From a candidate division TA06 bacterium SM23_40 (GTDB lineage: Bacteria > LJUI01 > SM1-40), in NCBI GenBank assembly GCA_001303705.1, contig LJUI01000185.1, forward strand, positions 1 to 6,364: a DNA stretch of 6,364 nt, given 5' to 3'. The notes beneath the pieces are model-generated. The model ran no database searches, was not told the origin of the DNA, and was given only the letters and a program-made list of their open reading frames with translations. Each line of letters starts with the position of its first letter. The first letter of the stretch is position 1. Both the position numbers and the translations under genes were made by a program. Of this stretch, positions 478 through 6,364 are shown one piece after another.

Positions 478-3400
478 ATGTCAGAACGTATCAGGAAAGA
501 TCGCGCCAGTCGAGCATACGCATCCATTGTCTCCCGGCTACACGCCCTTCGATCGTATCATCGCTTGATTGATGTGGGATATGGGTTGGCATGTGCAGTG
601 GCAGCGGGTGTTGGATGGCTTGTGCTGACGCTTCTCATCGAATCTGTCTTCAGGTTACCCAGCTCAGGGCGCCTTATTCTTCTCCTTGTGGGCGCGGTGC
701 TCATTGGGGGTCCGCTGGTGTGGTACACGGTCCGTCCCCTCCTGGGGGCGCCTGGTATCGAACGGCTGGCCCTGCGCTTGGAGGAGCGGTTTCCAGAGTT
801 CCGGGACAGACTGATCGGAACGCTCCAATTATGGGGAAGGCATGACGCCAACCCGGAAGGCTACTCCCTGGCGATGATCGACGCAGCGGCCGTCGAATCA
901 GAGGAGGTGGCCACACGTCTCAATTTCAGGGAGATCATCAACGTCAAACGATGCTGGAAGGCGGCCGAATCCGCTTCTGGTCTCATCGCTCTGTGTGTAC
1001 TTCTGCTGCTTTTCTTCCCTGCACCATTCCAATCTTCGTTGACGAGAGTGACTCATCCCTTCACCGATTTCCCCAGGCCGCAGAGGACATTCATTGTGGT
1101 TTCCCCCGGAGATACGGAGGCTGTGTCAGAAGAGGACGTGGTCATCTCCGTACGAGTGACGGGGGAGATCCCCGACGAGGTAGTGCTTCGTTCGGCCGAC
1201 GTCGGGCACGAGAACTGGAAGACCTATCCTTTTGTGAGGGAGTCCGATCGAGAATACTCCTACGTTGTACAGAGGATAAAGCGATCTCTGCACTACTCTG
1301 TCGAGGCTGGTGACGCTGAGAGCCCACTGCACACCATCACTGTTCTTGACAGGCCCATGGTGAGGCGGCTGAAGCTTCGGTACACATACCCAGCCTACAC
1401 GCGGCTCGGTGCCAGGGAGGAGGAGGACAATATCGGTGACATCAGGGCCATGGTGGGGACGTCTGTTCAAATGGACATTGTGGCGAATAAGACCCTCGAT
1501 TCTGCCCGAGTAGGGATGAGTGGTGGACAGCAGATCGAGGCTACGCTGAGGGGGAGGGAGGCACGGGCCGCCTTTGTGATCCGCCGCGGCGGGAAATATC
1601 ACATTGAACTGAGGGATAAATCTGGCCTGAGGAACAAGGACCCCATCGAGTATCGTATCACTGCATCTTCCGACGAATATCCCGTGGTGCGCATCATCCG
1701 CCCTGGCACGGACACAGAACTGGCCGAGGATATGCTCCTGCCCCTCGCCATCAATGCCACTGACGATTTCGGTTTCTCCCGCCTTCAATTGGCCTTCACG
1801 GTCGGGGAGGATGGGGCCCTTCAGGAGCGGACAATCCCGATGCCGAAGGGAGCTGGATCAGAAATGACCGTGGAGCATATGTGGGATCTTGCCGATCTTG
1901 ACCTCCTGCCCGAGGATGTTGTCTTCTACCGTGTGGCGGTCTACGATAATGACACCGTCTCAGGTCCAAAGCGATCGGAGAGCCGCACTTTCATGGTCCG
2001 TTTCCCCTCCATTTATGAGATCTACGCCGAAGTGGAACGGAGTCAAGAGGAGCAGATGGTCGATCTTGAGGAGATGCTGAGGGAAAGCCGGGATGTGAAA
2101 GAGAAGCTGGATCAGGTCGTACGGGAGCTGCAGCGCGAAACAGAGCTCGATTGGGAAAAACAGAAGGAGACGGATGGAGCCCTCCAGAGACAGCGGGAGA
2201 TGGCTGAGGATTTGAAGAAACTTTCGGAAGAGATGGAACGATCTGCGGAGAAACTGGAAAGGCACAACCTCGTCACCCCAGAGACCCTGGAGAAGCTGGA
2301 GGAAATCCAACGACTCATGCAGGAGATCACCACTCCTGAACTGATGGAGGCTCTGGAAAAACTGCACCAGGCCCTGCAGCAGATCGACCGGCAACAACTG
2401 CAACAGGCCATGAAGGATTTTTCCTTTAATCAGGAGGATTTCCAGAAGCGTTTGGAGCGCACCATTGAGCTCTTGAAGCGCATTCAAATGGAACAGAAGA
2501 TGGATGCCCTTGTGAAAAAGATGGATGAGCTCCTCGAAAGGCAGGAGGACCTTAATCGGAGCACCGAGAGCGCTGACGAACTGCAGGACATGAGCGATCT
2601 TGCCGCCCAGCAGGAGAAGATGAGGCGGGACCTGGACCGGCTCAAACAGACGATGCAGGCTCAGGCGACTCAGAAGAGAATCTCCGATCTGTTGAGGCAG
2701 ATGAGTCAGGGACTCAGGATGGCCCAGAGCATGATGATGCAGAATATGTTTCAGCAGGTACTGGAAGCCATGCGAAAAGCGACGCACCAACTCCTCGACC
2801 TCTCCCAGCAGCAGGAGGGGCTGTCGTGTCAGACCGAAGGATTGAGAAGAAACAGCCCCCAGTGCGAGGCCATGGCAGAGAAGCAACTGGATGCCTTCAA
2901 CAACGCGGCGAAGGTGGCCAATGCCCTTTTCGATGCTGCCAGACAGAGCCTCTTCATCACTCAGGAGATTTCTCGGTCGATGGGCAAGGCCATGGCTGAG
3001 ATGGAAGACGCCATCAACAGTCTGGAAGGGAGAAACACGAGCTCGGCCGCAAAGGGCCAGCGTGAAGCCATGAGCGCCCTCAATGAGGCGGTGATGCAGA
3101 TGCGTCAGGCCATGCAGAACATGTGCTCCTCCGGCCAGTGCTCCGGCGGCATGCAGCAATTCCTCCAGAGGCTTCAGCAACTGGCCCAACAGCAGATGTG
3201 CCTCAATCAGGAGACAATGGGTCTTGACCAGATGGGACAGTGGTCTCTGGAGGACAGGGCGGCTCTTCAGCGGCTGGCTGCAGAACAAGAAATGCTCCGA
3301 AAGAGCATTGAAGAGCTGCAGCGGGAGATGGGCAATCGGCCCGAGATTCTCGGGCGCCTCGATCGCGTCATCGAGGATATGAAAAAGGTCTCCGAAGAGT

Positions 3401-3708
3401 TGAAGGGGCAACAGCTCAGCCAGGAAACCATCGCCCGCCAGAACAGAATTCTGTCCCGACTTCTGGACTATCAGCGGTCACTCCGGGAACGCGACTACAC
3501 GCGGCAACGTCGAGCGAAACCTGGGAAGGAGTACCTTCGGACCGGTCCGGCCCATCTGCCGGAGGACTTGGGCGAGAGACAGGACGAACTGCGGCAAGAT
3601 CTGCTGGACGCCTTGAAGGAGGATTATCCGAAGGAGTATAAGGATCTCATCCGGGCGTATTTCGAGGCCCTGTCCAAGGAACAGGAAGGACCGGGGTCAG
3701 AGCTATAA
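478..3708 (+). CDS. DUF4175-family membrane-anchored coiled-coil envelope protein
   Basis: This is a complete 1076-residue protein. Hydrophobic segments at about 33-55, 64-85 and 163-181 predict a cytoplasmic N-terminus and a large periplasmic remainder. Family-like features in order are: the amphipathic stretch LEERFPEFRDRLIGTLQL (about 101-118) between TM2 and TM3; PGD at 210-212 opening a beta-rich region; YPAYT at 304-308; GTSV at 327-330; and ATDDFG with D429/D430. From about 512 to 1000 it is one long Glu/Gln/Met-rich helical region, clearly coiled coil. It closes with SRLLDYQRSLRERDY (about 992-1006) and YPKEYKDLIRAYF from 1050, a typical tail of such proteins. In known genomes the family often sits near MoxR ATPase, DUF58 and von Willebrand A genes, but none are in this window. 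Its biochemical role is unknown and no enzymatic motif is visible. The periplasmic part has cysteines only at 784, 796, 883, 888 and 908. The start has a ribosome binding site and a strong promoter upstream. The family assignment rests on recalled motifs and architecture. Confidence 0.85.
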   Translation: MSERIRKDRASRAYASIVSRLHALRSYHRLIDVGYGLACAVAAGVGWLVLTLLIESVFRLPSSGRLILLLVGAVLIGGPLVWYTVRPLLGAPGIERLALRLEERFPEFRDRLIGTLQLWGRHDANPEGYSLAMIDAAAVESEEVATRLNFREIINVKRCWKAAESASGLIALCVLLLLFFPAPFQSSLTRVTHPFTDFPRPQRTFIVVSPGDTEAVSEEDVVISVRVTGEIPDEVVLRSADVGHENWKTYPFVRESDREYSYVVQRIKRSLHYSVEAGDAESPLHTITVLDRPMVRRLKLRYTYPAYTRLGAREEEDNIGDIRAMVGTSVQMDIVANKTLDSARVGMSGGQQIEATLRGREARAAFVIRRGGKYHIELRDKSGLRNKDPIEYRITASSDEYPVVRIIRPGTDTELAEDMLLPLAINATDDFGFSRLQLAFTVGEDGALQERTIPMPKGAGSEMTVEHMWDLADLDLLPEDVVFYRVAVYDNDTVSGPKRSESRTFMVRFPSIYEIYAEVERSQEEQMVDLEEMLRESRDVKEKLDQVVRELQRETELDWEKQKETDGALQRQREMAEDLKKLSEEMERSAEKLERHNLVTPETLEKLEEIQRLMQEITTPELMEALEKLHQALQQIDRQQLQQAMKDFSFNQEDFQKRLERTIELLKRIQMEQKMDALVKKMDELLERQEDLNRSTESADELQDMSDLAAQQEKMRRDLDRLKQTMQAQATQKRISDLLRQMSQGLRMAQSMMMQNMFQQVLEAMRKATHQLLDLSQQQEGLSCQTEGLRRNSPQCEAMAEKQLDAFNNAAKVANALFDAARQSLFITQEISRSMGKAMAEMEDAINSLEGRNTSSAAKGQREAMSALNEAVMQMRQAMQNMCSSGQCSGGMQQFLQRLQQLAQQQMCLNQETMGLDQMGQWSLEDRAALQRLAAEQEMLRKSIEELQREMGNRPEILGRLDRVIEDMKKVSEELKGQQLSQETIARQNRILSRLLDYQRSLRERDYTRQRRAKPGKEYLRTGPAHLPEDLGERQDELRQDLLDALKEDYPKEYKDLIRAYFEALSKEQEGPGSEL

Positions 3709-4160: not shown

Positions 4161-5918
4161 TTGAAGAGAGCATGTCTGGCATTGTTGATATCCCTCATAG
4201 GATTCACCTTAGCGTTCGCTCAGCAGAAGGACGAGGTGCGAGCCGAACTGGATCGTGCCCGGAGGCTGGAGCGGCTGAACAGATACGAGGAGGCCCTCAG
4301 GATCCACAAGCGTCTTTTTAGCGCGGACCCGGGCAACTCTCAAGCAGTTGACGGAATCGAGCGCGACCTTCTGCAACTGAAGAGATACACGGAACTGATC
4401 GACTTTCTTCAAGAACTCCTCAAAGAGCACCCCACTGATCGGCCCCTATTGGAGAAGCTGGGAAATGCTCTCTATAGATCCGACCAGAAGGAAGAGGCCG
4501 AGGTCACGTGGAGCCGAATCATCGAAGGTGAGCCTCATGATGAGGGTTCATATGCGGGCGTCGCCAGGCAGTACCTGCATAACGGTCTCATCGACAAAAC
4601 CGTTGATACATATCTTGAGGGTAGAAAGAGGTTGGATCAACCGTCTCTCTTTGCCAGAGAGCTCGCACGGCTCTACTCCTCTCAGATGGAGTTTGAAGAG
4701 GCGACCAGGGAGTACGTCCGCCTTCTCGAAGCGAATCCCAAACAGTACTCATATGTCGAGAACATGATCGGCCAGTTCAAACGTGCCGACACCATTGACG
4801 ATGCGGTCGCAGCGGTGTTGGAGGAGGCGGTAGAGAGCCATCCAGACGATTCTCATTTTAGAAGGTTGTTGGGAAACCACTACTTTCGGACGGCGCAACC
4901 GGAGCGGGCGTATGAGCAATACGTCAAGGTTGAGGAGGCCGAACGGAGCAACGGCGGCACCCTTTTTGACTTTGCAGAGGGCGCATACCGCGAGGGATTC
5001 TATTCCACGGCATTGACAGCGTATCGCCACATCTTGGAACTGTACCCGACGTCTCCTCTCGGGCCAAAGATCATGCAGGGGATCGGGCGCTCTCTCGCAA
5101 AGGTGGGCCGATTCGAGGATGCGATATCGGCGTTCCGATCTCTCGCTTCCCTTTATCCAACCTCGAAGGAGAAGGAAAGCGCTCTCTTCGAGATCGGTGA
5201 GATCCAACTGCTCGAGCTGGGGCAGGTGGACTCGGCCCTGAGTGCCTTCGGCGATCTTGTCGATGGCCGAAAGCGCGGTCGTCACTATTTTGACGCCATG
5301 TTTCGCATCGGCGAGTGCCTTGTTGTGAAGGGCGACCTTGACGGTGCGAAGCAGGAGTACGAAGAGGTCCGAAAACAGGCCAGGGAGTTGCCGGAGATTG
5401 GTGATGAGGCCACTTTTCGGATCGGGGAGGTAGACTACTTCCGCGGAGACTTCGACGGAGCACTCAGCGAGTTGGAGAGACTGGCGAAAGCGGATCCCAA
5501 GGGAGCGTATGTCAACGACGCCTTGAGCCTCATCGTCTTCATCGAAGAGAATCGAGTGATGGGCGACGATGCACTTCGCGCATTTGCCACCGCAGCCCTT
5601 CTGGAACGCCAGAAGAGTCACTCTGAGGCGATCGAGGCCTATCAGCGAATACGGACGCACTATTCGTACTCCTTTCTGGGCGACGATGCCTTGCTCAAGA
5701 TTGGGGCTCTCCAGAGCGAACAGGGTCAGTTTGAAGTGGCCATTGAGACGTATCAACAGCTTCTGTCCACATATCCCTCGAGCGATCTGAGCGACGAGGC
5801 TCAGCGCCGCGTCGGCGAAGCGTACGAGGTTGGACTGCATGATCTCCCGAAGGCAATCGAGGCCTATGAGGAAATCCTCTCCAAGTATCCCGACAGCAGG
5901 TTCGACAATTGCAGGTGA
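4161..5918 (+). CDS. Secreted tetratricopeptide-repeat protein
   Basis: A 585-residue protein starting at TTG. Residues 1-20 form a classical signal peptide: MKRA, a hydrophobic core, then AFA before QQ as the likely signal peptidase I site, so the mature protein is periplasmic. No lipobox cysteine follows. The rest is a chain of helical repeats, about 22-56, 93-126, 163-193, 231-262, 265-298, 302-335, 338-371, 374-406, 413-444, 481-503, 506-540 and 543-578. They show the TPR pattern of paired helices, A/G-x-Y/F and repeat-end motifs such as LYPTS, TYPSS and KYPDS, as in YbgF/BamD-type TPR_6 repeats. TPR arrays bind proteins, so it is probably a scaffold or adaptor in the envelope. The specific partner is unknown, although the preceding coiled-coil envelope protein is a candidate. 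The C-terminus (RFDNCR) is abrupt after a repeat, and the last part of the gene is the copy duplicated at the window end. Confidence 0.85.
   Translation: MKRACLALLISLIGFTLAFAQQKDEVRAELDRARRLERLNRYEEALRIHKRLFSADPGNSQAVDGIERDLLQLKRYTELIDFLQELLKEHPTDRPLLEKLGNALYRSDQKEEAEVTWSRIIEGEPHDEGSYAGVARQYLHNGLIDKTVDTYLEGRKRLDQPSLFARELARLYSSQMEFEEATREYVRLLEANPKQYSYVENMIGQFKRADTIDDAVAAVLEEAVESHPDDSHFRRLLGNHYFRTAQPERAYEQYVKVEEAERSNGGTLFDFAEGAYREGFYSTALTAYRHILELYPTSPLGPKIMQGIGRSLAKVGRFEDAISAFRSLASLYPTSKEKESALFEIGEIQLLELGQVDSALSAFGDLVDGRKRGRHYFDAMFRIGECLVVKGDLDGAKQEYEEVRKQARELPEIGDEATFRIGEVDYFRGDFDGALSELERLAKADPKGAYVNDALSLIVFIEENRVMGDDALRAFATAALLERQKSHSEAIEAYQRIRTHYSYSFLGDDALLKIGALQSEQGQFEVAIETYQQLLSTYPSSDLSDEAQRRVGEAYEVGLHDLPKAIEAYEEILSKYPDSRFDNCR
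5794..5897 (+). repeat. 104-bp direct repeat, copy 1 (inside TPR gene)
   Basis: These 104 bases encode the last TPR unit (about residues 545-579) and recur exactly at 6261-6364, 467 bp downstream on the same strand. Identity starts at ACGAGGCTCA, preceded by G here and T in copy 2. It runs until the window ends, so its true right limit is unknown. In this copy the reading frame is that of the TPR protein, so this is the native location. Confidence 0.95.
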
Positions 5919-6143
5919 AGGTTGGTGCTGCAGGGTAGGGTCCGCTCTCTGCGCTGTGCGGATTTCCACATTTCGATATTTTCCGGCTGACATTCCTGCA
6001 ACGTTTTCGCAGTGTGCGAGAAACAGTCTTACGTCGCTTGATCTTCCGTCTGCCACGAATGATGAGAAAGAAGCCGCATTCTACACTCTGAGCGGTCCAC
6101 GGAGGTTGCTGTCTCGGGCAGGTCGCGACCCCTCACATCTGTC
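5919..6143. other. Gap between the TPR gene and amrS
   Basis: About 225 bp with no recognisable gene. A small imperfect hairpin lies at 6004-6022 (8-bp stem with one G.T pair, 3-nt loop), without a T-run after it. GGAGG at 6101-6105 is too far from the ATG at 6144 to serve it. An open frame (5830-6219) crosses the region but overlaps the TPR gene in another frame and has no protein-like features. Confidence 0.5.
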
Positions 6144-6364
6144 ATGGAGAGTGCGATTCGGGAAAGTCTTCTCTTCAAACCTCTCGAGGAGGAGAGGGTT
6201 CGGTGCAACATCTGCCTGAGGCGGTGTACGATCGCACAGGGAGAGCGCGGCTTCTGCGGTACGAGGCTCAGCGCCGCGTCGGCGAAGCGTACGAGGTTGG
6301 ACTGCATGATCTCCCGAAGGCAATCGAGGCCTATGAGGAAATCCTCTCCAAGTATCCCGACAGC
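6144..6364 (+). CDS. amrS: AmmeMemoRadiSam system radical SAM enzyme, N-terminal fragment (chimeric end)
   Basis: The frame from ATG at 6144 is open to the window end. Residues 18-42 carry a cysteine pattern, CNICLRRC then GERGFCGTR, with C21, C24, C28 and C38. This matches the conserved N-terminal start of AmrS, the radical SAM member of the AmmeMemoRadiSam trio with AMMECR1-like and Memo-like proteins. The pattern precedes the CxxxCxxC cluster-binding motif, which is not reached here, and full proteins are usually over 300 residues. The cellular substrate is not something I can state. From codon 40 (base 6261) the DNA is the 104-bp TPR-gene repeat read in a different frame, so residues beyond about 42 are not AmrS sequence. 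The gene is thus either cut by an assembly error or truly disrupted. No good ribosome binding site lies directly before the ATG, but the start fits the family length ahead of the first cysteine. Confidence 0.7.
   Translation, partial: MESAIRESLLFKPLEEERVRCNICLRRCTIAQGERGFCGTRLSAASAKRTRLDCMISRRQSRPMRKSSPSIPT
6261..6364 (+). repeat. 104-bp direct repeat, copy 2 (window end, fused to amrS)
   Basis: An exact copy of 5794-5897. It begins inside the amrS Cys-Gly-Thr-Arg codons and ends at the last base of the window. The TPR reading frame is not continued from amrS, so no sensible fusion protein results. A short stretch such as ACGAGGCTCA may be shared by the authentic amrS and TPR genes and could have caused the false or real join. 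Confidence 0.95.

Follow-up and report, generated by a model that had tools for sequence, protein, structure and literature searches.

The end of contig C16

The window is the complete contig C16 (6,364 bp) from a draft genome of 2.88 Mb in 189 contigs; base 6364 is the last base of the contig, and the end of the window is therefore a true contig end. Its last third holds the following features:

4161–5918, plus strand: gene for a TPR-repeat protein of 585 aa, holding copy 1 of the repeat (Pfam TPR_6, E 7.8e-37; relative in CP070758.1)
5794–5897, plus strand: copy 1 of a 104-bp repeat, within the TPR gene (exact match to 6261–6364)
5919–6143, plus strand: gap of 225 bp from the TPR stop to the amrS start (no Pfam, Rfam or terminator/promoter-like match)
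6144–6266, plus strand: start of amrS (AmmeMemoRadiSam radical SAM enzyme), residues 1–41, the last of which are CGTR (TIGR04337; alignment with the homologue in CP070758.1, genome G041)
6261–6364, plus strand: copy 2, a contig-end overlap with an untrustworthy join at 6260/6261 (exact shares of 104–105 bp occur only at contig ends here)

The two copies are identical at all 104 bases (exact-match comparison within C16), far beyond chance, and lie in direct orientation with a start-to-start spacing of 467. A search of the genome confines the sequence to these two sites, and scans for Rfam families and for terminator-like or promoter-like sites found none at the repeat. To the left of the two copies the sequences are unrelated, with 33% identity over 40 bases; the join is therefore abrupt and the repeat is not an old gene-family repeat. 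Copy 1 begins in codon phase 1 of the TPR gene (5794), copy 2 in phase 0 of amrS (6261). An earlier note had claimed an exact direct repeat of this length that stops where the window stops and carries TPR sequence out of frame; all three points are borne out.

The TPR protein has a collinear relative in CP070758.1 (62% identical), in which CDEAQRRIGEIYEIGLQDVPKAIEAYEEILSKYPES aligns with the copy 1 protein sequence, SDEAQRRVGEAYEVGLHDLPKAIEAYEEILSKYPDS, and copy 1 encodes the last, C-terminal repeats of the protein. By this collinearity, copy 1 is genuine. A misjoin of copy 1 at 5897/5898 is not favoured, the DNCR that follows copy 1 aligning with DSVR of the relative, although this alignment is short, precedes an earlier stop in the relative and is weak evidence. 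Between the two genes, the gap holds no Rfam match and no terminator-like or promoter-like site, and the plus-strand ORF that crosses it (5830–6219) has no Pfam match.

The amrS fragment matches TIGR04337 (E 2.5e-5) at profile positions 5–36 and aligns ungapped over 37 residues, up to CGTR, with the intact AmrS of CP070758.1. Past CGTR the intact protein reads CGTRRNREGRLYSLAYG and the window departs from it at the join: the relative continues with RNREGRLYSLAYG, the window with LSAASAKR, which is TPR DNA read in another frame. The CxxxCxxC radical SAM core and the full length of the family are absent, and the fragment from 6144 is the genuine start of an amrS gene rather than a whole AmrS member. 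The earlier note had placed the join in the middle of CGTR. This stands at the base level, where the first base of copy 2 falls within the Thr codon; at the protein level all four residues are read intact, because ACGAGG (Thr-Arg) occurs in both genes, and the first residue to differ from AmrS comes directly after the motif. With both flanking genes genuine, the sole anomalous adjacency is 6260/6261, a 467-bp backward jump, and the advice to distrust this join was sound.

A search for local gene order gave 40 nearest genomes, none closer than the same domain. The nearest, CP070758.1, gives protein continuity for TPR and AmrS, but no synteny, the two genes lying 2.2 Mb apart. Its record has short N runs beside both genes (X runs in the translations), which are probably masking. 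Further upstream in the window, a DUF4175 protein (478–3708, 1,076 aa) is 69% identical to a 1,123-aa protein of CP070758.1, the latter being 47 residues longer and having an extra stretch in mid-protein.

Exact shares across the assembly

We listed exact shares of at least 30 bases on both strands among 141 of the 189 contigs (1,723,542 bp, 252 contig ends), the 30 of these contigs longer than 20 kb being covered by their first 20 kb. The longest shares in this set are 105 and 104 bp, and nothing exceeds 105 bp. All shares of 104–105 bp touch contig ends (C43, C47, C67, C176, C12 and C16), and the longest share clear of any contig end is 99 bp. The C16 share thus touches a contig end, and its length recurs at other ends and is not exceeded inside contigs. 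Assemblers have been reported to leave exact contig-end overlaps of maxK or maxK-1 (PMC10914622; PMC7111523). The restriction of 104–105-bp shares to contig ends argues that the 104 bp are an overlap which the graph of the assembler left behind. Both the length of the repeat and its stopping point would then be set by the assembler. An assembly-graph loop, one of the origins proposed in the earlier note, is on this count supported more strongly than its reader could show, 104 bp being the characteristic end overlap of this assembly.

Contigs C176, C47 and C67 converge on a single 104-mer, from which they take homologous but different continuations; this fits the standard picture of a plain graph branch node. 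Beyond the overlap, C12/C176 and C47/C67/C176 are homologous, with about 80% identity adjoining it, so these branches are caused by real gene-family repeats. At C176 15528–15631, the C12 end, the C47 start and the C67 end, apparent gene-family copies have exactly 104 bp in common and the assembly is broken; the reading frames there may encode proteins of iron-sulfur/HdrA type. C43 also loops into itself: its bases 1–105 recur at 3248–3352, with unrelated sequence beyond, and on its minus strand the contig-start copy comes after an apparent signal peptide. Its 105 bp would fit 104 plus one chance base.

C16 resembles the de Bruijn contig-end overlaps used by COBRA (maxK/maxK-1) in having an exact share of fixed length at a contig end, a length that turns up at several of the assembly's branch points. 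Unlike the usual case, in which the overlap is with the end of another contig, the end of C16 overlaps its own interior, as a lasso. Spurious cycles in metagenome assembly graphs are likewise short closed walks with no supported exit, but the C16 loop is no extrachromosomal circle: it is entered linearly and has an ordinary chromosomal gene on each side.

Readings of the join

Shares of this length are peculiar to contig ends in this assembly, and the genes on either side of the join are both genuine. We consider it probable that copy 2 is the overlap of a de Bruijn graph node, reached through what is most likely a chimeric connection from 6260 to 6261. The assembler would have walked through the TPR gene, the gap and the amrS start and then back to the 104-mer at 5794–5897; with this node already used, the walk would halt and print the 104-mer again as the contig end. 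The most likely source of the connection is a small number of chimeric molecules or reads, perhaps formed by template switching at the short common sequence ACGAGG; the assembler may have followed the chimeric edge since the graph lacked the true amrS continuation or supported it poorly. ACGAGG is a possible microhomology of 6 bp, a length that is provisional because the bases certain to be amrS end at GGT.

The fate of the amrS continuation bears on this. A contig search found no amrS remainder continuing C16 in the same genome, and no other contig there carries the C16 amrS start or the sequence that should follow it. What the search did find were complete amrS-like genes, two in all (C76 and C121), plus a weak match on C121, none of which continues C16; the amrS side of the join has no match in viral contigs. 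The shortest contig among those examined is 5,071 bp, and the genome seems to omit contigs below about 5 kb, which possibly explains why the continuation is absent from the bin.

Direct joins of less than 10 kb are rare among chimeras from MDA (11/475; PMC1855051), and the C16 library may not be amplified; where such close direct joins occur, short complementarity is usual (PMC1855051). Six shared bases at the C16 join would fit a chimera or a duplication alike. Against a chimera stands simple coverage reasoning: a true continuation with good coverage should win over a rare chimeric one, and the loop edge may therefore have been truly supported.

Such support would be expected if the 467-bp unit 5794–6260 were really duplicated in tandem, in a clone or in part of the population and at a short shared sequence, a reading that we regard as unlikely but worth weighing. 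The TPR gene and amrS would both remain whole, separated by an amrS-TPR fusion without function, and the contig would stop since short reads cannot resolve the repeat. A direct 467-bp backward jump is exactly the junction that a tandem duplication makes, here at the possible microhomology ACGAGG, and a duplication accounts both for the retained loop edge and for a contig end on re-entry; its fusion frame is predicted to run about 140 codons past the join, ending in the second gap or amrS start. No exit contig with the amrS remainder is found in the genome, though the apparent omission of contigs under about 5 kb applies here too, and CP070758.1, with its widely separated genes, is without any such duplication. 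C16 shares with known short tandem duplications at microhomology the direct orientation, the 467-bp unit and the possible 6-bp shared sequence; it differs from them in that no more of the second unit is visible than the 104 bp which the assembler would print anyway. Mainly because nothing of a second unit is seen beyond these obligatory bases, we hold a chimera to be roughly three times as probable as a real duplication, a judgement and not a measurement.

It is improbable that scaffolding or gap filling wrongly joined two contigs at ACGAGG. Short N runs occur in five of the contigs examined and may be scaffold gaps, although masking of some stretches is also present in the collection; the C16 join, however, is free of N, and the contig ends exactly at the graph overlap length, as contigs do at branch nodes.

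The earlier note had offered as its alternative a recent recombination that broke amrS; the first 41 codons of the gene would then be truly fused to TPR DNA. We find this extremely improbable, even though no stop interrupts the frame between 6144 and the contig end: it requires TPR DNA to be present again at an unlinked site and to be visible for exactly the end-overlap length of the assembler, and the genome has the two other complete amrS-like genes, with nothing showing a loss of the one on C16. Nor is it the natural alternative, the 467-bp direct backward jump being a tandem-duplication junction with complete genes on either side.

Use of the sequence

In length and end point, copy 2 is an ordinary contig-end artefact, with an unverified join, and the apparently broken gene at the end of C16 is most likely not real biology. 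Neither a chimera nor a duplication requires a broken amrS, because a tandem duplication leaves an intact copy downstream. With a chimeric join, the contig simply ends before amrS does; with a real duplication, the second unit would again close with the amrS start and should run on into a complete amrS. The latter case would be a recent 467-bp TPR/amrS tandem duplication in an uncultured bacterium, with a six-base microhomology and both genes complete.

The importance of the repeat is for data quality only. Users should trim or disregard bases 6261–6364, leave the fused open frame 6144–6364 without a protein annotation and refrain from scoring amrS on C16 as a pseudogene. Comparing the length of a repeat with the end-overlap length of the same assembly needs no reads and is applicable to terminal repeats of other draft genomes. 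Direct repeats also occur near the ends of C112 (5613–6276, spacing 279) and C90 (6667–7292, spacing 447); these are apparently real, diverged repeats.
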